Assembly (NCBI GenBank): GCA_009773765.1
Contig: WTWZ01000007.1
Span: 1-63,816, forward strand
DNA: 63,816 nt
Direction of reading: 5' to 3'
DNA from: Prolixibacteraceae bacterium
Lineage (GTDB): Bacteria; Bacteroidota; Bacteroidia; Bacteroidales; Prolixibacteraceae
The position numbers and the translations under genes were made by a program. The notes under the pieces were generated by a model. The model ran no database searches and was not told the DNA's origin. It was given only the letters and a program-made list of their open reading frames with translations. Below, one piece after another: positions 25,980-37,507 of the stretch. Numbering within the stretch: position 1 is the first letter of the stretch; every line of letters begins with the position of its first letter.

Positions 25980-26000
25980 TTTTATTTTAGTTTTGGTTAA

Positions 26001-26033
26001 AAATTTTAAGTGCTAAACTAACACTTAAAATTT
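26001..26033. promoter_or_regulatory. 12-base inverted repeat in the GH51 leader
   Basis: Arms AAATTTTAAGTG (26001-26012) and CACTTAAAATTT (26022-26033) are perfectly complementary around a 9-base spacer. The element ends 22 bases upstream of the GH51 start. It could be a repressor or activator site or a transcript hairpin. No run of T follows in the gene direction to make it a terminator. Confidence 0.5.
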
Positions 26034-26125
26034 AAAAAACAACACCGATAAATTCAAAATGAATTTTTCAGTGGTTGGTTAAATTTGGTAAAATAAACAT
26101 CTTTAATCCATCTTGAAATTTAATG

Positions 26126-26278
26126 TTACACTTTTACTCCTTTCCCAAATTCAGCCAATTGATTTACATCTGCATCGTCTTTTGAACGTGCTTCCTGCTT
26201 CATATAACTTTCGTTCCCTTCCAACTTGCTTATAGTATCCTTTTTTACCTGTTCAATTTCTTTTTTCAAGGATTCCAT
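26126..26278 (-). CDS. Possible 50-aa charged helical peptide
   Basis: An ATG-started frame of 50 codons begins MESLKKEIEQVKKDTISKLE and ends EFGKGVKV. The composition is highly charged and helical, with heptad-like spacing in the first 25 residues, unlike random AT-rich sequence. It lies 289 bases beyond the AlbA_2 gene on the same strand and could be the last gene of the island. I recognise no family. It may be a regulator or small antitoxin-like partner, or it may not be expressed. Confidence 0.4.
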   Translation of the reverse strand: MESLKKEIEQVKKDTISKLEGNESYMKQEARSKDDADVNQLAEFGKGVKV

Positions 26279-26567
26279 TGTTTTAATAAGGGTTTGGTTT
26301 ATCTAAAACTACGATAGTCTCGTCTAATCATCATCTAAATTATTTGCAATAAAGCATTAAATATCAGTGCAATATACTCTTTCAACTTTTATTTAAACAT
26401 CTAAAATCATCTAAAACTGTCTAATTTATTTCCTTAACTTTTATTATATGTACTTTCTAATATTTTTAACAGTTAATTAGTAAATATTAGAACATTAACA
26501 CATTGATATTTAGCTACAAATAATAAATTCATCTAATTAATTACTAATAAATCAACTAATAAATCAA
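26279..26567. other. Very AT-rich gene-free stretch with ATCTAAA repeats
   Basis: This stretch is visibly far richer in A and T than its neighbours. It contains recurring ATCTAAA and ATCTAAT units (for example near 26310, 26332 and 26399-26423) and TAATAAATCAA units near the right end. It marks the downstream side of the accessory island. I see no gene or clear terminator hairpin. Confidence 0.5.
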
Positions 26568-28236
26568 TTAATGATTTTTCACCCATAACGGTTTATTGTC
26601 AGTCCCTTCGTTTCTGATTTTTTTATTTCTGCTTAATTCTGAAATCAGATTATTAATCTTCACTTTCTTTTGTTTATCATTGTAAATATCTGGCAGTTTT
26701 TCCCAAATTAAACCTTCGATATCGGTTCTGCTCAGACTTTTGTGTTCTTTTAATGCCCTCAAAATTAAATCATGGTAATATTCTTTATTAAATCCTTTGT
26801 TTCTGGTATAAGCCGCTTTTTGACCAGTGATTTTTGCCACAGTAACTGAAATAAAAAAGTTGGGTTTTCTTCCTTCAATCAGTTTCTTTTCCCTGAGCCT
26901 ATTTATTTCCCAATCGGTTAAGCTTATTTTTTTCTGAACCTTATCCAACATCATAATTTCGATGAGTGTAAGCGATGGAATCTGTGCCAGAACACGGGCA
27001 TAATGTAAATCAATAACTTTTCCGGTAACCTTAACCACCACTTTATTGTCGGCAAACTGGTAGTCGGGCATAGGGAAAAAACGTTGCCTTTGGTAGTTGA
27101 ACATGCGTTTTATACCGCTGCCAATGGTATCAACCATTTTCAGGTTAAACATGGCTGCTGCCAGAAAAGGATTGCGATAGTGTTCTTCAGGTGCATCTTC
27201 GCGAATTACCCGCTCAATATTTCCGGGAATGAAACTGCCTAAATTGCTGAATGTTAAATATCCATCTTCATTCTCCACTACATTGACATAACCTCCCAAC
27301 CGGTAGTCCTGATGGGCAATACAATTATTTATTGCTTCGCGGATTACATAGGGCTCATATTGGTCGATTTCTTCAGGGAACAGCGACCCTTCGCGCATAT
27401 ACCGGTATTTTACTTTCCTGATTTTGTTATAAATTTCTTCTGCGTTTAAAAGAAACGGACATGGTAATACTGTATAATCTTTTTCGATATTGTCCTTGTC
27501 CTTTAGTATCCATCGGATTTTAGCAACTGCAGGAGAAATAAAATGTTCCGATTCGGGTTTCCCCAGCAAGATAATAGCCGCATTTGTAATTTTACCGCGT
27601 TTTGTAATTTTTGCTTTATTTAAAAAGGTAATATCGTCCCAAACATCGACATCTATAGCCTGTTCCGGAAATTTATTTTTGTAATTCTCCCTTGCTTTTG
27701 CAATGGCTGTTTCCGATAAACTTGCAAGGGTTGCCTCCTTGCAAATCTCAGCGCTCCAATCGTCAATAATAGCCAGTGGTTCGTTTAATATGGCCTGTTC
27801 TCTTTCGGGGCGCATCCTGACAAGACTGTTTTCAACGCGCTGCCAGGGTTTGTTGTGGGCTAAAACCGGTTTACGGGGTTGATGTTTGGGAATATGGAAT
27901 ACCCAAACTGTTTTTGAAGTATCGGTTGTTGTAAACGGTTCTACATAAAATCCTTCGGAACTAAGATTGGGTGTTTGCTCCAGGATTTTTAAAATAATAT
28001 TTTGGAAGTGTAGTTATGAAAATCTTCAATCCCGGTAATGTTCAGCGTATTGTCCTCGACCCCGATAACCAGGTGCCCGCCTTCCATATTGGCAATAGCT
28101 GAAACATACGAAATAATATCTTCTCCTTCGTGGCCTTTGACAAAGTGCTTTAAATTTCTAAACTCTTTCCATTCACATGAAGGTGATTCTTTGGGGAAAT
28201 GAGTCTGTAAATAATGTTTAAGTTTTTTTCGGTCAT
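26568..28236 (-). pseudogene. AlbA_2 (Schlafen-like) / HATPase_c_4 protein, disrupted by two frameshifts
   Basis: A natural start ATG at 28236 would give MTEKKLKHYLQTHFPKE if the T-run at 28223-28229 had one more base. The frame then encodes an AlbA_2 domain (CEWKEFRNLKHFVKGHEGED, ANMEGGHLVIGVED). A second loss, in the T-run at 28000-28003, breaks it again before NIILKILEQTPNL. The rest continues through AHNKPWQRVENSLVR into an intact 415-codon frame with a HATPase-like region (YVIREAINNCIAHQDYRLGG) and winged-helix tail. Repaired, it is about 556 aa. Such proteins are often called transcriptional regulators or helicase-like and recur in restriction loci. Both lesions are in homopolymers, so sequencing error or phase variation is possible. 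Confidence 0.8.
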
Positions 28237-28267
28237 TGATAATAAATATTTATCTCTGTATTTTAAA

Positions 28268-28870
28268 CTATCTACATATTTCCTCAATAAAATCTTTTAA
28301 TCTGGCAAAGGTTTCATGTTTACGGGCAATTTTATCAAAGTCGTCAATGTTTTTGGCTATTCTTATTGCTTCTGTAATGTCATTATATCGTCTTTCGAGG
28401 TATTTACTTATAGTCTTTTTGCTGAAGTCACTTTTTGCTGACAGTTTTACACCGTTAAACTTTTTTACCGGATGCGGATGGCAAATTCCGGTTTTGTATT
28501 TGGTAAGGGCTGTCCCTTCAACAATTAGCCAACCTTCGAGTTCTGGCTCTATACAGATAAGTTTAACTTTCGCCAAATCGACATTGGCAGCATTCAAATT
28601 ATTAATAATGGCTTCCACGTCATCCTTACGACAAGCTGTGCCGCCCCATGCAGGTATTAAATCCCACAAAATGGCAACTCTATCACAATGTTCAGCGTCG
28701 ATGAGTGTTTTAGCAATTTCGCCACATTTGGCAATCATACCAGGTTTATTGGTAGAACCTGAAGGAACAACAATAACTTCGATGTCACGACAAAGCTTCT
28801 GGATTACATATTCATAAACCTGATGGTCGGTTCCCTGCTTGGGGCATTCGAGTATTAAACCTAATTTCAT
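28268..28870 (-). CDS. DUF4276/TOPRIM-like partner of AAA ATPase
   Basis: This 200-aa protein begins MKLGLILECPKQGTDHQVYE, with an acidic residue placed as in TOPRIM-like folds. An Asp follows in RVAILWDLIPAWGG, and the acidic stretch LICIEPELEGWLIVEG resembles the conserved element of DUF4276 proteins. TOPRIM-like proteins of this sort act as nucleases or effectors next to AAA_15/AAA_21 ATPases in defence loci such as PARIS (AriA/AriB), OLD and the RloA/RloB-like pairs. Its ATG overlaps the stop of the ATPase gene by four bases, so the two are translationally coupled. The family assignment is by motif memory only. Confidence 0.65.
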   Translation of the reverse strand: MKLGLILECPKQGTDHQVYEYVIQKLCRDIEVIVVPSGSTNKPGMIAKCGEIAKTLIDAEHCDRVAILWDLIPAWGGTACRKDDVEAIINNLNAANVDLAKVKLICIEPELEGWLIVEGTALTKYKTGICHPHPVKKFNGVKLSAKSDFSKKTISKYLERRYNDITEAIRIAKNIDDFDKIARKHETFARLKDFIEEICR

Positions 28871-30027
28871 GTGCGTGAAAGTTTATTCATTGTGTATAGG
28901 TTTCCGGCAGAGAATTTGGTTTTCCATGCATTCAATCGCTCATCATCATCGGGACGATAATAGTCGGTTTTGCCGTTAGTTCGTTCAGCTACTATAATAT
29001 GTTTTAAAGCTACAAGGTCTAAAAAATAAGGTGAATGAGTTGTAGTAATAAATTGGTGTTCAGGAATTAAACTCCGTATTTCTTCCACCAATAAATTCAA
29101 TGTTCGTGGGTCTAATCCGTTTTCAATTTCTTCGATAAAAACAATAGAAGGCGGTGTTTCGCTGTTAAGGATGGCCAATATTGCCAGAATACGTAATGTA
29201 CCCGACGAAAAGAGCCAGCTTGGTAAGCGCCGTTTACTATTATGTTCCTGTAAAAAAAGATAGATTTGTTTTTGAATTGAAATCTCTTCTCTACCAACAT
29301 TGTCCAAATCGGGTAATACATAGCGCATTTTGTCGAGGATAATATCGCTAATGTTTGGATTATCCTGCATACGGCTGAAAACGTCGGCAAGGTTTTCTCC
29401 TGTACTTTTCATACGGATTGAAGTGGAACTATAATCTCTTCGGATAGGAAAATACATTCGTTCCGGTTCGAGCGAAAGGAATTGCCACGAGGAAATGTAA
29501 TTTTTGAAATCCTGAACAAATGAGTTGTCGCCCAACAAGTTTTTAGCTGACAACACTAAATTATTGGCAATTCTATTGGTTGGTAATGGCTCATTTTTAA
29601 GAAAAAATTCTGTATAACCTTTCTCATCAATAACTTCCGATTTAAATATTTCAGTTTTATTCTGAAGAAGGCTTTCGTGTGTTACCAGATACAAATCACC
29701 ATTTGGAATGGTATTAAAGCAAACTTTGTATTGATATTTTCCCGCAGGTAATTTACCTTTTATCTCTATTTCAATATCGTTTGTAAACAGCTTTTTATCT
29801 GCGCTTTTAGCTGGTGTTGAAGTATTTCGTATATGCTCCAATCCAAACCAACGTTCGTTAAATCCGTTGGAAAGTCCGTAAAGTAAAACGTTTTGAAGTG
29901 TTTGCAATGCTTCAATCACACTACTTTTGCCACTGCCATTGTTGCCTACAAATACTGACAAGTCAGAAAGTTTGATGGTTGCCGACTGAATGGCCTTGAA
30001 GTTTTTAATTGTAATTTTATCAATCAT
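28867..30027 (-). CDS. AAA_21/OLD-like ABC-type ATPase
   Basis: This 386-aa SMC/ABC-like ATPase has Walker A GNNGSGKSS (residues 28-36), a signature-like segment LPSWLFSSGTLRILAIL, Walker B PSIVFIEEIENGLDP and the switch TTTHSPYFLD. There is no TOPRIM domain at the C-terminus. That domain is probably supplied by the next gene, with which it overlaps by four bases. Such ATPase/TOPRIM-like pairs sense phage products or DNA ends and trigger an effector. The gene starts 11 bases after the stop of the methylase gene, so it is built into the restriction-modification operon. Confidence 0.88.
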   Translation of the reverse strand: MIDKITIKNFKAIQSATIKLSDLSVFVGNNGSGKSSVIEALQTLQNVLLYGLSNGFNERWFGLEHIRNTSTPAKSADKKLFTNDIEIEIKGKLPAGKYQYKVCFNTIPNGDLYLVTHESLLQNKTEIFKSEVIDEKGYTEFFLKNEPLPTNRIANNLVLSAKNLLGDNSFVQDFKNYISSWQFLSLEPERMYFPIRRDYSSTSIRMKSTGENLADVFSRMQDNPNISDIILDKMRYVLPDLDNVGREEISIQKQIYLFLQEHNSKRRLPSWLFSSGTLRILAILAILNSETPPSIVFIEEIENGLDPRTLNLLVEEIRSLIPEHQFITTTHSPYFLDLVALKHIIVAERTNGKTDYYRPDDDERLNAWKTKFSAGNLYTMNKLSRT

Positions 30028-30038
30028 GTTGCTACGTT

Positions 30039-33000
30039 TTAGCGGATGTATTCTTTGAAATTAAATTGTATCTCCCTGCGCTCAGCCTCACTTACATCAG
30101 GCATTTGTAAAAGGGTAGTCATCATTTCATCCTCGGTAAAACCATATAAGACAAACACTAAAGCATCTATTTCGGCTTCGAGGCGAAAGGTATTTTTCCC
30201 GCTTTCCTTGAAATCTAAAATAGTGTTCACATTATCAACGATTTTATCGTGACAAAATTTTTCATTTTTATTCTTAAAATCAATTCTTTTGACAGGAAAT
30301 GGTTTCAAATACTCGGTTTTAAAAGTAAAGTAGCCACCACGCAACACATAACCCGTTGAGTTTAAGAAAAACCAAAGTAACTTTGAATTGAGTAAGCCAA
30401 GCCAGTAGTACTGTTTTTCTTCAGTGTTATCTTTAAAAACAAAGCTGTAAACTTTGGTTGTATGATAACAAATACCTTCACTATCAAGTGTTAATTGAGG
30501 TTTAATTGCTATTTCTGGGGTAATTACTTTTATGGCATCAAATTCAATAAGGTTTTGAGGTCTACTATATTGCCACCAAGTCTTTTCAAATCTATTATTT
30601 TCCCTTTCCTTTAATACTTCTTGATTTTTAAACAAATATTCCCAAGCTAATGGAAATTGTTTTTTTATCTCCGTTTCCTCATAAAGAACATATTTGTTTT
30701 TCAATAATTTATAAGGGAAAAGTACGTAATTAACAATTTCTGGCTTTTCATATCGTCTAACATCTTTTCCCATTAAAAATGGCTTTACAAAATCTTTTTC
30801 AATAATTATTTCTTTATTGAGTTCGTTTGAATAACATTTCAATAATTTAGTTGATTCAAAACCTTTATATTTCAAAACAAAAACTTTGTCTGCTCCGGTA
30901 GGAATTCCTTGAAATATTTTTCTTGTTATATTTTCAAGTTTTTGAGGTTGATTTTGTAACTTATCCAAAATATTTTGCTTTTCCTCACTTGTAAACGCCC
31001 ATTTTTGGTCTTTTTCAGGTTGTGGCAGAATAAAATCAGCTGCACTGTTTGTGTTTTGCAACCATTCGTCGGGTTTATCTACTTTAATGTATTTAAATGT
31101 TTTATGAACTTTCTTTTGCAAGAAAAATAAGCAAGTATAATTAGTGGCACTTTCAAACATCTGCTCGGCACCAAAATGAACTATCTGGTAAAGACATTTT
31201 TCTTTGGCAACATAATTTCGTAATCCCATACCAAAATCACCCTGAAAAAACTTGTGAGGTTGGATAAATGCTAAGAGGCCATTTGTTTTAAGTAATTTGT
31301 ATCCAGCTTCAGAAAATAGTACATATAAATCCCAATTACCTCTTTGTGCAGAAACAAATTGTTTTCTTGCATAAGGTATCAAATCAGGTGTGACCTCCTG
31401 TACACCTTGAATTCGAAGATATGGTGGATTACCTATCACAATGTCGAAACCTTGTATAATCCCAAACATCCATTCAGCATCGAAAAAGGTAGCTGAAGTA
31501 TTTTGGTCGTAAGGGTTCCAGTGGGCAATCTGGTCAGCATCGGTAGGTGGAAAACCAACTTTTTTGAGTTCGATGCTTATTTGTTCGCGCAACCCGGCAT
31601 CCTTTTCACGGTATTTCTTTTTAGTTTCGGGTGTACGGGCCGAAAAGTGTTTATGCCGGACATCCTTCAAATCGTTTTCGAGCGGGTAAACACTGATAGG
31701 TTTGGCCGTATTTGATTTACTTAACCCAATTAAAGTATTTGCCGCCACAAATTTGGTTTCGAGGTTGGGCAGGGTAAGAATACCCCTGTTCTTTTTACTG
31801 TCGTCTATCTTCTGGTCGATAATCAGCGAAATAAAGAACCGCAGTTTGGCAATTTGCACTGCAATGGGCTGAATATCTACACCATAAATGCAATTCTCAA
31901 CCAGGAACAGTTTTCGGGCATAATCAGGTTCGTTAATGTCGGTGTCAAAAGAATCGTGGATTTCATCGAGCCTTTCGTCGAGTTCTTTCAGCAGTTTTTT
32001 TCGTATATCATCGAAACTTATGTGTTGGGCGTATTCTTTGTCTTTTTGAACACGGGTTACCAAAACCTGGTGTTCTGTCCTTGCCCTTTCTTCCTGAATT
32101 TTCAACCAGTGCAGGTTGTCTTTATCCATTTTTTGCAAAATCAGCACCAGCTTTTGTAAAATACCCATCGGAAATGCGCCCGAACCACAGGCAGGGTCAA
32201 GAATGGTGCAACCATCAATGGCTTTCATTAAAAGCAGCGTATCCTTTTCGTTAAAAGGGTTATTCTCATTATGGTAATCAATTAACAATCGCAGGTTATC
32301 TTCCAGCTCCTGTTCTTTGCCAATCCAATGGCTTTCATTTATTTTTTGCTCAAAGGTTAATTGTCCTTTCCGGGTTTCGTTACCAAACATTTCTATCTGG
32401 GATTTCCCCAAAACTTTAACACCGGAATTTTCTTCCAATAACTGGTTCTTTAAAAATGCAATTATTGATTCATCAACCATGTAGTTGACAATTTCGCGGG
32501 GAGTGTAAAACGAACCTGTTTGTTTTCGCGCCGTGGTTTTTGTTTCGGGATTGTAGCTTGCCAGCAGGTTCTCGAAAACTTTCCCCAGAAGTTCAGGGTC
32601 GAGGGCAACTTCAATTTCAAAGGGGGTATTTTCTTCTATGGTGAAATTATAGCTTTTTAAAAGTTGAATCAGGCCACGAATTTTTACATTTCCGTGGTTG
32701 TTATCGGGGTATGAGCGGCTCAGGTCGGCATGTTCAGTTCCGGCAAAGAAAAGATAATCAGGAACTGACAAACGGGTTTCGTTTGTTATTTTATTTGAAA
32801 AACAATCGATTCGTTTTTCTCCAGGCTCACCTACATTTTTATCGAGGTTTTCGAACAAGCCACCATTTAAAAAGGGAATGTTTTGGGTAAGTTGAAGAAA
32901 ACGTTCCTTGTTGTTAAAAAAACGTTCGTAACGGTAAAATCCCTGCACACCGTATTGCCGGTTCACGAACTTTCGTTTGTCGCATCCCATTTCTGTATTC

Positions 33001-33803
33001 AGGGTGGCAAAAAAGAGGTTTTGTAAAATGGCTTTGTAATAGGTACTTCCAGTTTTATCGGTAAAATTCAACAGTTGTTTTATTTCACGTTCATCAAAAA
33101 GTTCTTCAGGTATCAACTTTTTCTGCTTCAGAAACCAGACAAAAATAAGTCGTGTAATCAGCCGAATAACCGAAGTGGCATTTCTTACTTCCTCATCCTT
33201 TTCAAAATCATCAGGGAACTTTACATTCTGCAATGCCCAGAAATACCAGTTTGAAAGTTCGTTGTAAAAATCTTTATTCAGTTTTTCAACTGAGAAAGCT
33301 TCCTTAATATCACTTAGCGCAATGGGTTTGCCATATAAAATGCTAAAACGGTCGGTTGCTGTACGGCAAACCTCACCTTCACCCAATAAATAAGTATATC
33401 GTTTTGATTCGGTTTTTGTTTGCAAAATATTTCCTTCGTCATCCAATTCCCTTATTTCCGAGACAAATGAAAACCGCCATTTGTGTTCGTTTACAAAAAC
33501 AATTAATGCCCCGTCAACATCTTTATTGTACACATTCCGGAGGAGGTTGCGTAATCCTACGCGGTTGGTTTCAATCCATACATTGGGTTTAAGGTTAACC
33601 AGATAAAACCCGATTAACCGTTCGTCGGAAGTGTTTGTGTTTCCCAGTTCAAAAGCATCGTATGCCAAATCGTTTGCAGGAAGGGGTATTTGTTTGGGCT
33701 GCTGTCGAATTGTTTTCACACTGAATAGCGACTGCATAACTTCGCGCCATTTTTCGAGGTTAAACGGCGATTCGAAAATGTTTCTTAATTCAGTTTTTTC
33801 CAT
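30039..33803 (-). CDS. Eco57I-type DNA adenine methyltransferase with recognition domain
   Basis: This 1254-aa protein carries the N6-adenine methylase motifs: the SAM-binding ILDPACGSGAFPMGIL near residue 540 and the catalytic FDIVIGNPPYLR near 790. SFYTPREIVNYMVDE lies before motif I near 430, a typical place. The region after about residue 950 fits a TaqI/Eco57I-like target-recognition domain (GIPTGADKVFVLK, then LLNSKLLWFFLNSTG). I cannot identify a nuclease in the first 400 residues. It should methylate host sites and give specificity. Its ATG overlaps the stop of the PLD-helicase gene in TAATG, so the two are made together. The C-terminal part looks more AT-rich than the rest. Confidence 0.9.
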   Translation of the reverse strand: MEKTELRNIFESPFNLEKWREVMQSLFSVKTIRQQPKQIPLPANDLAYDAFELGNTNTSDERLIGFYLVNLKPNVWIETNRVGLRNLLRNVYNKDVDGALIVFVNEHKWRFSFVSEIRELDDEGNILQTKTESKRYTYLLGEGEVCRTATDRFSILYGKPIALSDIKEAFSVEKLNKDFYNELSNWYFWALQNVKFPDDFEKDEEVRNATSVIRLITRLIFVWFLKQKKLIPEELFDEREIKQLLNFTDKTGSTYYKAILQNLFFATLNTEMGCDKRKFVNRQYGVQGFYRYERFFNNKERFLQLTQNIPFLNGGLFENLDKNVGEPGEKRIDCFSNKITNETRLSVPDYLFFAGTEHADLSRSYPDNNHGNVKIRGLIQLLKSYNFTIEENTPFEIEVALDPELLGKVFENLLASYNPETKTTARKQTGSFYTPREIVNYMVDESIIAFLKNQLLEENSGVKVLGKSQIEMFGNETRKGQLTFEQKINESHWIGKEQELEDNLRLLIDYHNENNPFNEKDTLLLMKAIDGCTILDPACGSGAFPMGILQKLVLILQKMDKDNLHWLKIQEERARTEHQVLVTRVQKDKEYAQHISFDDIRKKLLKELDERLDEIHDSFDTDINEPDYARKLFLVENCIYGVDIQPIAVQIAKLRFFISLIIDQKIDDSKKNRGILTLPNLETKFVAANTLIGLSKSNTAKPISVYPLENDLKDVRHKHFSARTPETKKKYREKDAGLREQISIELKKVGFPPTDADQIAHWNPYDQNTSATFFDAEWMFGIIQGFDIVIGNPPYLRIQGVQEVTPDLIPYARKQFVSAQRGNWDLYVLFSEAGYKLLKTNGLLAFIQPHKFFQGDFGMGLRNYVAKEKCLYQIVHFGAEQMFESATNYTCLFFLQKKVHKTFKYIKVDKPDEWLQNTNSAADFILPQPEKDQKWAFTSEEKQNILDKLQNQPQKLENITRKIFQGIPTGADKVFVLKYKGFESTKLLKCYSNELNKEIIIEKDFVKPFLMGKDVRRYEKPEIVNYVLFPYKLLKNKYVLYEETEIKKQFPLAWEYLFKNQEVLKERENNRFEKTWWQYSRPQNLIEFDAIKVITPEIAIKPQLTLDSEGICYHTTKVYSFVFKDNTEEKQYYWLGLLNSKLLWFFLNSTGYVLRGGYFTFKTEYLKPFPVKRIDFKNKNEKFCHDKIVDNVNTILDFKESGKNTFRLEAEIDALVFVLYGFTEDEMMTTLLQMPDVSEAERREIQFNFKEYIR

Positions 33804-36800
33804 TATTTCACAAAGGTTTCGGAGATTACAATTTCGGGTTCAATGTTTGAGGATAATTCTTCAATAAATGAAATTCTTTCTTCATCCTCTTTTTCTGCTG
33901 CGTCGTATTTGCTGGCAATCAGCATTAAAATGTTTTCTGCCTGGGCGTAGGTAATTTGTTTTTTATCGAGTTTCAAACGGATTTTTTTAATCTCGTTGGG
34001 CAGCGGAGTATGGGTTCCCAATTCAACCAATTCCTTTAGATTATCGCAAGCCTTTTTAACAGGCGCTTTTTTAGTAAGCGTTTTCATGTCCCTGAGAAAC
34101 TTGTTTGCCAGTTTTGTAATGGCATCGGCCTTTTCGGTGGTTGTTACAGCATCGCCAGATGAGATAAGGAAATCTTTTTCAAATTCGGCAAGCGCACTTT
34201 GTACCTGCTCAAAATGAGTGTCGGGCAGACTGTAAGAAGTTTCAGTTGATTTGGCTTCGAGAATGTTGGCGGTTTCGAGGAAAGTAAGCGATTTCACCTG
34301 ATTTTTGGGATTAATACCGTAAAACTCCATTTTGTATGGGGACTTTAGGAAAACTATTGTATTCTCCAACAAATCGGTTTTACTGCTTTCTTTTACGGAC
34401 CTTCCGGTTCGGGCTTTCTGGGGCAGGATTTTTAAACGGCGGAACTCTTTTGGATTGTTATCCTTAAACTCGCGTATAAACCGGAGATAGTATAAACGCT
34501 TGTCTTCATCGTCGGGCATTCCCTGTTCAAACAATTCAAATTGTTCCACCAACTCTTCGTGAGTATAAATCTGGGCATCTTCGCCAAATGCGGAGTGAAA
34601 TCCCTGCAGTTTTACGAGTGCGTTGTTATATAAATGAATCTCACTGTCGCCCTGCTGCGATGGATAAAAACTGTAATTGTATATGACATCTGAAATGCTT
34701 CCAATGCGGTTTACCCTGCCAATACGCTGCATTAACCGGGTTGCATTCCAGGGCGTGTCGTAATTAATTATCACATTTGCCCGGTGCAGGTTTACTCCTT
34801 CAGCCAGAATATCGGTTGTTAAAATGATTGAAAAGTCATCTTTTTGTGCACCATCATAATTCGCATCGAAATTCTGCTGAATGGTTTCAAATGTCTTGTT
34901 TCTATTTTTGGAAGAAACCGATAAAACTCTGGTAAAATTATTTTTTTCAAGATTTTCCTCAAGGTAATCGGCTGTGTCGGTACTTTCAGTAAAAATTACC
35001 AGTTTACCGGTGGGATTTAAATCTTTTCTGAATACCTCGTTTTTTAGCAATTCAATAAAATTATCGAGCTTTGGGTCTTGTACTACCTTTGCCCATTCTT
35101 TCTTTAATTCTTCCAGATGTTTAACATCCTTTTTCAGTCCTTCTATAAACCCCAGTTCAAAATCATCAGGAGAAAAAACATTATTCCTTGGATTTTCGGC
35201 ACTCAATTCAATAATCAATTCCTCAATATCATCCATCGACATTCCCTTTTCCATGAGGTTATTGATGTTCAAATCGGGCGCAATAAACACTTTTCCATTC
35301 TCAAACATTGCAATCATCCGGTTGGTGGCAGTCAAAATATTGTTTAATGATATTTTAAAAGCGTTGAAACTGCTTTCCAATCGTTTTACCATCAATGTTT
35401 TTATAATGGCAGCCAATGATTTGGATATTAACGGCGCTTTTTCGTAAAACTGTTCCTGAATCTCTTTTTTTAAAAACCGGATTGCCTGGTAACGGTAAAA
35501 ATTGATTTTATCTTCGTCGGCGAGGAAAAAAATGGTTTGAAAAAACAATTTGCCCAAAGCAGCATCCATAAGGTATGTCCGGGCTTTAGGCGGGGCAATT
35601 TCGGGGAAAACGATGCCTTGTTCCTTTAAATCTTTCTGATATTCAGGATAACTTTTTAAGTCGCTTCGTGTGCGACGAATAGTAATTGGTTGAATCACCC
35701 TTTCGCGAATGGTTTTGTACAATTCCCTAATTCTGCCAATATTCGGATGTTCATCGCCGATAATTTCCCTGTATTCCTGAATGATTGGACCGAAAAAACT
35801 TTGGAGATTTGTTTCGGGTAATGTACTTCGTCGCGCATCCTGAAACAATAAAAGCTGGTAATACAAATCCTGCGGCCGGTTGTTTAGTGGTGTGGCAGAA
35901 ATAAGCATCACTTTTTTCTTTTTACTTTCAATTAATCCTTCACCTCTGCGCGGAGCTTTGCATATTCGCTGCAATGCCGAAAACATTTGAGATGTATGAT
36001 TTCTGTACCTGTGGGCCTCGTCCACCAATATCAGGTCATAATCCTCTTTTGCCCAAAAGTTAAGGTCTCCGTCAAGGATTTTTTCCAAACGTCCATTGGT
36101 AATAAATTTTGTGTGCCGGTCAATCCCGAACAATCGAAATGTTGTCTTCCAGTTTTTTTCAATGGCAGGAGGATAAACCACCAAAACCTTTGTATTTAAA
36201 GAACCATTAGCAATCAGAAATCGTTTGGTAATCATTGCAGCCACAACAGTTTTACCCAGACCAACCACATCGGCAAGAAAAAAACCGTTATGTTCCAGAA
36301 GCATGTGAAATCCCTGGTTAACTGCATCAATCTGGTAACTCAGTTTTTTAAAACTTTTCGGCAAGTCGCCAACTGTATCAGGGTCGTAATCGATATTCTT
36401 TCCAAAATATTCGATTAAAAATTTGATGTATAATTCAAATGGGGTATAAGTTTGTCCAATGTGCGTTTTCTGTCTGAACTGTTCAATGTCGGCAGGTAAA
36501 ATTGGTGTGGAATGTTCCCACAGGCTCTTAAATTCAGAATTGGCAAAATCCACTTCATCAAAATCTTTCAGGGCAATATTCATTTCGTAATTCGGGGACT
36601 TTTTAATTCCCAGTCCGGCTTCAGTCAGGTTTGAAGAACCCATGATAACCCAGCCATCCGAATTTACTGTATGGTTCTTTGGTAAAAACAAATAGAATTT
36701 GGCATGTAATGTTTTAGTCTGGTGCGCCCTTACTTCAATTCTCCCATCAATGAGGTCATTTACGAATTTTAGGATGCCATTTTCAACTTCTGCCGAATAC

Positions 36801-37102
36801 TTGGCTTCCCTGATGTCCTGAATAAACCATTTTAAAAATTCATCTTTGGTTTTTTCGATATCACCAAAAAACATCATGCCTTTCCGTTGTGCTTCGGCAA
36901 ACATCTGGTCAACATTAATGCCTACCAGAATTTTTACACTTGATATGTTTTCGAGATAGGGCTGCAATGCAAAATAACCCGAAGACCTGAAATAGCCAAC
37001 AACCGCATGAAAGGCATATAAGTCTCTCATGGTTTGAGTAATTCCTTTGAATTTCTCAAATAAAGTATTGGTATCTGTATTGGTAAAAAATTTTGAAGAC
37101 AT
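33803..37102 (-). CDS. PLD-nuclease and SNF2-helicase fusion
   Basis: This 1099-aa protein begins with a phospholipase-D-like domain. Its HxK motif is in KTLHAKFYLFLP (His133, Lys135), followed by VIMGSSNLTEAGLG. One HKD half-site is expected to pair with another on dimerisation to cut DNA. A superfamily 2 Snf2-type motor follows: Walker A ADVVGLGKT near 280, DEAH at about 361-364, LISATPLNNRP near 405, and the C-terminal lobe ILTTDILAEGVNLH with MQRIGRVNRIG. The tail is helical. It probably translocates on and cleaves unmethylated DNA, guided by the coupled methylase. It heads the five-gene minus-strand operon. Confidence 0.88.
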   Translation of the reverse strand: MSSKFFTNTDTNTLFEKFKGITQTMRDLYAFHAVVGYFRSSGYFALQPYLENISSVKILVGINVDQMFAEAQRKGMMFFGDIEKTKDEFLKWFIQDIREAKYSAEVENGILKFVNDLIDGRIEVRAHQTKTLHAKFYLFLPKNHTVNSDGWVIMGSSNLTEAGLGIKKSPNYEMNIALKDFDEVDFANSEFKSLWEHSTPILPADIEQFRQKTHIGQTYTPFELYIKFLIEYFGKNIDYDPDTVGDLPKSFKKLSYQIDAVNQGFHMLLEHNGFFLADVVGLGKTVVAAMITKRFLIANGSLNTKVLVVYPPAIEKNWKTTFRLFGIDRHTKFITNGRLEKILDGDLNFWAKEDYDLILVDEAHRYRNHTSQMFSALQRICKAPRRGEGLIESKKKKVMLISATPLNNRPQDLYYQLLLFQDARRSTLPETNLQSFFGPIIQEYREIIGDEHPNIGRIRELYKTIRERVIQPITIRRTRSDLKSYPEYQKDLKEQGIVFPEIAPPKARTYLMDAALGKLFFQTIFFLADEDKINFYRYQAIRFLKKEIQEQFYEKAPLISKSLAAIIKTLMVKRLESSFNAFKISLNNILTATNRMIAMFENGKVFIAPDLNINNLMEKGMSMDDIEELIIELSAENPRNNVFSPDDFELGFIEGLKKDVKHLEELKKEWAKVVQDPKLDNFIELLKNEVFRKDLNPTGKLVIFTESTDTADYLEENLEKNNFTRVLSVSSKNRNKTFETIQQNFDANYDGAQKDDFSIILTTDILAEGVNLHRANVIINYDTPWNATRLMQRIGRVNRIGSISDVIYNYSFYPSQQGDSEIHLYNNALVKLQGFHSAFGEDAQIYTHEELVEQFELFEQGMPDDEDKRLYYLRFIREFKDNNPKEFRRLKILPQKARTGRSVKESSKTDLLENTIVFLKSPYKMEFYGINPKNQVKSLTFLETANILEAKSTETSYSLPDTHFEQVQSALAEFEKDFLISSGDAVTTTEKADAITKLANKFLRDMKTLTKKAPVKKACDNLKELVELGTHTPLPNEIKKIRLKLDKKQITYAQAENILMLIASKYDAAEKEDEERISFIEELSSNIEPEIVISETFVK

Positions 37103-37507
37103 TTAGTTTAGTTTTCCGTGTAATTCATTTAATGTTTCCTGCTTTTTTAGCTTAATTTTAACACAATTATGTCAAAAATAAACATAAAAAGAAAAGTAAA
37201 GCACTTTGAAATCATTAAAAGTAAAAACACTTTTTTTATTTACACAATTTTACATTTTTGTATTTTAAGGGTTGATAAGAAGTACAATTGTTATAATTGC
37301 GATGGCGTGCTTGTTGATAATGAGGCAATTTCGGCCAAAATATTTCAGTGAAAGGCATCCGGTTTAGGATGTAAAGAGGTTTGCCTGCCGTTTTGATGTT
37401 TTCGGATTTGCAGATGGTTGAATTAACCACGTTTTTTCAAATATTAACAGGCACATCCTGAATGTTGGCTGTTCTTTTTCTGAATAAAGGTTATCTTAAG
37501 GGGATCA
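37103..37507. other. 405-base intergenic region, no gene seen
   Basis: This gap lies upstream of the PLD-helicase gene and downstream of the CvfB-like gene, both on the minus strand. The first 160 bases are AT-rich and should carry the island promoter, but no clear -7/-33 pair is present. Reading frames across it show no recognisable protein. Confidence 0.5.

Follow-up and report, generated by a model that had tools for sequence, protein, structure and literature searches.

Does a run of closely packed minus-strand genes in the genome of a Prolixibacteraceae bacterium (Bacteroidota) encode one anti-phage system, or two that lie side by side? The genes are found in the 63,816-nucleotide stretch of contig WTWZ01000007.1 (assembly GCA_009773765.1), which was analysed as a whole and is referred to here as the window; it is contig C64 of its own genome, G000 (4.27 Mb), and all positions given are window coordinates. 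Four long genes at 28268-37102 encode, in this order, a PLD(HKD)-SNF2 helicase, an Eco57I-class N6-adenine methylase, an OLD-like ABC ATPase and a DUF4276-related protein. We lean towards the reading that they form one inserted operon, in which a two-subunit ATP-dependent restriction-modification (R-M) enzyme is combined with a PARIS/MADS-like guard module. This reading builds on the gene content, the gene order, intact catalytic motifs, the recurrence of the order and an adaptor pattern between helicase and methylase, all of which were observed.

The four genes and the recurrence of their order

The listing of open reading frames (ORFs) bears out the tight spacing described in a first-pass annotation of this DNA. 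The genes follow each other nearly without spacing: helicase and methylase share 1 base, methylase and ATPase are 11 bp apart, and the ATPase and the fourth gene overlap by 4 bases. The helicase (33803..37102, minus strand like the other three; 1099 aa), the proposed motor and nuclease of restriction, contains the Pfam domains PLDc_2, SNF2-rel_dom and Helicase_C and matches the PADLOC model C3a139 'HKD+Snf2' with 156 bits. H133, K135, GSSN (N158), E173, the Walker A lysine and three motif VI arginines are identical in 29/29 aligned helicases, that of the window included, and the SNF2 motifs are kept in these proteins, with either DEAH or DESH. The H, K, N and E of the PLD site are the set found in BfiI. 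The methylase (30039..33803; 1254 aa) has Eco57I (128 bits) and TaqI_C (39 bits) Pfam domains, the latter giving it a target-recognition domain of its own, with motif I, DPACGSGAF, at residue 536 and NPPY at 792. These Pfam and PADLOC matches sustain the earlier view of the PLD-SNF2 fusion and the methylase as an R-M machine.

The ATPase (28867..30027; 386 aa) matches AAA_21 (105 bits) and AAA_15 in Pfam, HEC-01A (168 bits), AriA (100 bits) and mad3 (88 bits) in PADLOC, and PtuA and OLD chains in the PDB; its Walker A, Walker B and H-loop regions are conserved across the aligned relatives. The fourth protein (28268..28870; 200 aa), a putative effector, has no Pfam domain itself and weakly matches mad4 (22 bits, PADLOC) and MADS4 (24 bits), and its relatives match PF14103 (DUF4276), two of them just under the Pfam cut-off. 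The ATPase/TOPRIM-like pair proposed in the first-pass annotation thus holds for an OLD/PtuA-type ATPase with a small partner; the partner is DUF4276-related, and its TOPRIM nature is putative.

The same-genus comparison covered 12 genomes, 10 of them with a CvfB-like gene, and eight of these loci were fetched. In one genome (G1105), the two genes that bracket the block in the window, for an arabinofuranosidase (81% identical) and a CvfB-like protein (71%), are separated by about 0.2 kb. The other seven gave no match to the arabinofuranosidase, and about 0.2-0.6 kb separates the CvfB gene from the next gene on that side. None of the eight has the block's genes at that site, and no tRNA was found within the window. 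The block of about 11.5 kb between the two flanking genes (25980..37507) is an insertion, probably a horizontally acquired defence operon.

The fourth gene is rare. A search with its single sequence (E 1e-8) found it in none of 394 other same-phylum genomes. A four-sequence profile found two besides its own genome among 375 genomes of the window's class, and two besides G713, a metagenome-assembled genome (MAG) labelled Planctomycetaceae, among 382 genomes of that phylum; further matches came from one genome contig, L067 (the G713 match), and two plasmids. In total, eight records carry it: the window, Anabaena, Calothrix, G469, G1038, L067, G433 and G958. The ATPase lies upstream of it in seven of the eight, split into two pieces in L067, and a methylase precedes the ATPase in six. 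It does so directly in the window, Anabaena, Calothrix, G469 and G1038, while L067 has a recognition-domain cassette and a recombinase between the two genes. L067 is a MAG contig whose organism label may be wrong; two further short contigs of the same genome carry HKD-SNF2 genes.

The full four-gene order occurs in four records: the window, the Anabaena plasmid pANACY.05, G469 (of the window's class) and G1038 (of the phylum of G713). Helicase and methylase of the window share only about 21-25% identity with their counterparts in the other three, so that the arrangement either lasted or was rebuilt. The four-gene idea predates the finding of G469 and G1038, which therefore provide a fair test of it. 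Because the order is present in three other records and the block is missing from the eight same-genus sites, the four genes are linked beyond chance. Together with the six fourth-gene records in which the gene lies behind ATPase and methylase, the same three records make the unit look like a core that stays together with an exchangeable module, not like a chance stack. A chance stack of genes was accordingly dropped as the best explanation once the order had recurred in Anabaena, G469 and G1038, and an earlier view of the ATPase/DUF4276 pair as an unrelated neighbour, based on its presence in 0/28 loci, was revised on the recurrence in plasmid records. Behind the four genes, G469 carries an AAA+ ATPase-like gene and an ATPase gene of seemingly Hsp90 type, both judged by eye only (L104:2262-5432).

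The helicase-methylase core and its proposed N-terminal adaptor

Relatives of the helicase at E <= 1e-60 are present in 29 of 395 same-phylum genomes, its own included. In 19 of the 28 other loci a methylase gene adjoins that of the helicase, and in eight it is one or two genes off; in the 28th, the contig ends before any methylase. Neither the ATPase nor the fourth gene was found in any of these loci within the 6-19 kb examined for each (neighbour BLAST cut-off 1e-4), L037, L040, L043, L057 and L060 being among those cut at contig ends. The methylase N-terminus as query found 16 viral contigs, 14 of them with a helicase alongside and none with the ATPase/DUF4276 pair in the stretch examined (likewise 6-19 kb per locus; BLAST cut-off for the pair 1e-6 with >55 bits). 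The helicase itself gave no confirmed relative in the viral-contig scan and no match among phage records at E 1e-40, and viral-contig scans with the ATPase and the fourth protein, alone and as an alignment, gave no confirmed relative either. On plasmids, 29 records (several being versions of one plasmid) have a helicase match; among the 13 viewed, an annotated methylase adjoins the helicase or is one to two genes from it in 10, and the ATPase/DUF4276 pair is present in one, from Anabaena. The helicase-methylase pair is a common core.

This survey bears directly on a reading of the locus as a stack of two independent systems, namely an HKD-SNF2 R-M system of two genes beside an ATPase/DUF4276 system of its own that resembles HEC-01 or PARIS. 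The lack of the module in the same-phylum and viral-contig loci favours such a stack, as does a lone ATPase/DUF4276 pair in G958, but the recurrence of the same order despite the low identity, and the place of the fourth gene behind ATPase and methylase in most of its records, argue against it, and we judge a stack rather unlikely. The question of one system or two, raised by the first-pass annotation, is thereby answered in part: the core mostly occurs without the ATPase pair, yet all four genes stand together in three other records. The gene-order search proposed there likewise returned the order in Anabaena, G469 and G1038, and the module in no same-phylum locus.

Other genes also associate with the core. 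Another ABC ATPase family (C2) lies behind the methylase in 9/28 loci, and a DUF1016-family gene (C3) lies between helicase and methylase in 4/28; three members of the former and one of the latter were named by Pfam, the rest by clustering. In a quite improbable reading, the ATPase and the DUF4276 protein of the window would be working parts of the restriction complex (loading, licensing, self-protection), that is, two of four subunits of one enzyme. The tight gene overlaps are consistent with this, as are the C2 ATPases and MADS, in which a methylase likewise occurs with a MAD3-type ATPase and MAD4. Most core loci, however, are without both proteins, so the core must be able to work alone. 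Separately, KAP-type NTPase genes lie directly behind the methylase in L045:6116-8341, where the protein matches PifA with 260 bits, and in L047:5905-8343, where it was assigned by clustering only. Three cyanobacterial plasmids have a VapC-annotated gene with a small partner between helicase and methylase (L072:12487-13120, L073:11473-12106 and L078:11484-12114).

A further link between the two core proteins lies in the N-terminal part of the methylase. Compared with four loci whose helicases are 68-69% identical to that of the window, methylase residues 1-150 are 53-57% and residues 151-440 35-45% identical; compared with two loci whose helicases are 28-30% identical, the values are 19-24% and 53-54%. 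This comparison left out L037, L040, L042, L057 and L060, where either the helicase is incomplete or the methylase is missing, split or truncated. The window methylase is a natural mosaic, with one breakpoint between residues 176 and 182 that fits 123/131 informative sites and was equalled in 0/10000 permutations, an optimistic figure as sites were treated as independent. G1038 is a second mosaic: relative to Anabaena, its methylase body is 54% identical (1005 positions), its N-terminus 21% and its helicase 23%. Over 31 loci, Thermus and Calothrix excluded, the first ~176 residues and the helicase show a rank correlation of 0.90. The partial rank correlation of the helicase with the N-terminal domain given the body is 0.76 (reached by 0/2000 permutations), and that with the body given the N-terminal domain is 0.33 (4/2000); dropping the two mosaics gives 0.72 and 0.35, respectively. 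The first ~176 residues of the methylase (33276..33803, minus strand) thus travel with the helicase and not with the methylase body, and probably act as a docking domain for the helicase. Because the N-terminus tracks the helicase, and the window methylase is itself such a mosaic, we favour a reading of helicase and methylase as one enzyme.

The methylase also matches the PADLOC Type IIG ('REase_MTase_IIG') models with 282 bits, and the methylase homologue on Synechocystis plasmid pSYSX matches one end to end (2662 bits). Type IIG enzymes have their own nuclease, and these matches would suit a reading in which the methylase is a self-sufficient Type IIG R-M enzyme with the helicase as a separate accessory. 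Against it, the methylase is regularly paired with a helicase whose own nuclease motif is intact, its N-terminus tracks that helicase, and its residues 1-440 match no nuclease family; we consider this reading very improbable. The N-terminal part has no Pfam match, and a structure model of residues 1-190 gave block pLDDT (predicted local distance difference test) values of 62-91, its five top-ranked PDB matches having template-modelling (TM) scores of 0.10-0.12.

The family may include an active methylase. The pSYSX gene table, incomplete by its own description, holds two DNA methylase annotations. One is part of a Type I locus; the other, SGL_RS01600, follows a homologous helicase, from which two small genes separate it. 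According to the accessible parts of two reports, M.Ssp6803IV is encoded on pSYSX (PMC6604393) and makes GAm6AGGC (PMC7296061). By elimination only, SGL_RS01600 would be M.Ssp6803IV, since the accessible part of a third report refers to a methyltransferase mutant that concerns a different gene, sll8009 (PMC6560206), which counts against this support for the favoured reading.

Further stretches resembling the methylase are present on contigs C21, C22, C24, C30 and C94 of G000. In four relatives, a second piece of the methylase recognition domain lies on the opposite strand (L035:8294-9126, L039:10461-11218, L044:9641-11478 and L067:3483-5190); the longest exact inverted repeats of these duplicates measure 20 to 111 bases, and by eye they adjoin a serine-recombinase-like gene, which suggests specificity switching by inversion in these four loci. 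The same scan found no inverted copy in window positions 26100-37200.

Proposed mechanism and points against it

In the mechanism we propose, the methylase would mark host DNA with N6-methyladenine at sites set by its TaqI_C-type recognition domain, possibly at one asymmetric site by analogy with the GAm6AGGC of M.Ssp6803IV. At an unmarked site, its N-terminal adaptor would engage the HKD-SNF2 protein, which, judging from its families, would translocate on DNA with ATP and cut through its PLD H-K-N-E site. The ABC ATPase would keep the DUF4276 protein inactive and would release or activate it once restriction is blocked or overrun, much as PARIS does in response to an anti-restriction protein. 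This release would be a second response, probably damaging to the host. The guard role of the pair is suggested by analogy with the PARIS and BREX literature, and the steps from structure to function are the weakest part of the proposal for this module.

Several observations weigh against the proposal. Co-variation of the methylase N-terminus with the helicase is no proof of contact, and the methylase could carry its own nuclease in the manner of Type IIG enzymes. The model of the fourth protein, built from a two-sequence alignment, has a pLDDT of 56 with best fold matches to riboflavin synthase (TM ~0.35), and a PDB profile search gave two matches at E = 1.7, which is chance level. The protein also has a single acidic residue at a position where TOPRIM has DxD, so that its TOPRIM fold is conjectural. 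Helicase and methylase of Anabaena and G469 are 53% and 52% identical, and as these two are close relatives, the four records with the full order do not represent four independent origins. Among the remaining fourth-gene records, the most distant one, G958 (E 1.7e-6), shows the ATPase/DUF4276 pair but, in the stretch seen, no methylase; the copy in G433 is truncated and sits close to the end of a contig; and in Calothrix the gene upstream is another one and not an HKD-SNF2 helicase. Most core loci are without the pair, and the core therefore does not need it.

More tentatively, the locus may represent a class of its own among ATP-dependent restriction enzymes, built from two subunits. The methylase adaptor of ~176 residues would serve as a swappable clutch for the HKD-SNF2 motor, which would do the cutting, a socket behind the methylase would accept varied alarm modules, and the ATPase/DUF4276 pair would be a built-in guard set off by inhibition of the restriction enzyme. 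A recurrent, loosely named helicase-methylase pair would thereby gain a build plan of adaptor, motor, recognition domain and exchangeable back-up module, and the two natural mosaics indicate which part should decide the choice of helicase. The rare ATPase/DUF4276 pair is tied to R-M systems in distant bacteria, and the idea of a guard of restriction becomes testable.

Relation to known systems and the downstream pieces

The closest described system is Type-2 BREX-related (BR). The accessible part of its description reports an HKD-Swi2/Snf2 helicase and an N6-methylase as the restriction core, both of which are found in the window, and presents the OLD-ABC/TOPRIM pairs and Schlafen genes that adjoin BREX and BR loci as back-up effectors (PMC12839542). 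The four-gene unit differs in having no DUF499 ATPase: DUF499 (PF04465) had no match in G000, one control genome being matched by the same search. It was found in 3/29 helicase-bearing genomes and never near the helicase (on other contigs in G270 and G213, and ~0.9 Mb off on the same contig in G236). DUF3780 had no match in G000 and none in any control genome either. Membership of Type-2 BR was rejected on the missing DUF499. As far as its accessible part goes, that description resembles this locus closely and leaves less of it new; the locus differs in lacking DUF499, in its four-gene unit with DUF4276, which recurs, and in the adaptor pattern.

The comparisons with other named systems gave no gene-for-gene match, in line with the first-pass annotation. 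In PADLOC, helicase and methylase match C3a139 'HKD+Snf2' and 'REase_MTase_IIG', respectively; these are single-protein models that do not cover the unit. The MADS comparison covered MAD2, MAD3 and MAD4; methylase, ATPase and fourth protein resemble these three with 26.7, 133.5 and 24.1 bits, below the NCBIfam cut-offs of 720, 420 and 160 bits. PARIS shares an OLD-like ABC ATPase followed by a small putative nuclease, and differs in that the partner in the window is DUF4276-related and the module is attached to an R-M core. No AriB match was found, mad4 being the sole PADLOC match of the 200-aa protein, with the reach of the models to distant AriB unchecked; this agrees with the earlier exclusion of PARIS. 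DISARM, likewise set aside then, has SNF2 (DrmD-like), PLD and adenine methylase parts, whereas the PLD of the window is fused to SNF2. No DrmA or DrmB gene was found among the block's five proteins and four neighbours scanned; the helicase itself is a weak DrmA match (58 bits), and one MZB-domain gene lies elsewhere in G000, on contig C99. Hma resembles the locus in its helicase, methylase and ATPase; its methylase, HmaB, is an m5C enzyme according to the accessible part of PMC8565338, in contrast to the Eco57I/N6 class found here. As for modules of an OLD-type ATPase with TOPRIM, an ABC ATPase of OLD/PtuA type is present in the window. The four-gene unit, neither ordinary nor wholly new, is a variant of the R-M systems built on an HKD-SNF2 protein and an N6-methylase, with an ATPase/DUF4276 module that recurs. 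Literature searches of limited coverage found no paper on DUF4276 with ATPase, methyltransferase or defence, and none for slr6050 in Synechocystis or for HEC-01 with PADLOC; the unit may nonetheless already be published.

Two further members suggested by the first-pass annotation did not hold up. The fifth gene, of the Schlafen type (26568..28249, minus strand), is frame-broken and not intact: when the halves were searched apart, the ORF at 26568-27815 had HATPase_c_4 as its sole Pfam domain, and the AlbA_2 half (PF04326, 37.1 bits) was in another frame at 27992-28249, the remainder being open from 28013 to 26568. The small charged peptide (26126-26278, 50 aa) has a single Pfam line, at E = 0.052, and its ORF is among 62 in the list for the stretch that reach 40 aa, a list that also contains the real genes. 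A working role for either is not supported. Schlafen AlbA_2/HATPase_c_4 genes also occur at other HKD-SNF2 loci: directly upstream on a Parabacteroides plasmid (L079:6439-7983), within 1 kb in L044:1678-3234, at ~6 kb in L055:12897-13481 (HATPase part only) and at ~10 kb in L048:17322-18641.

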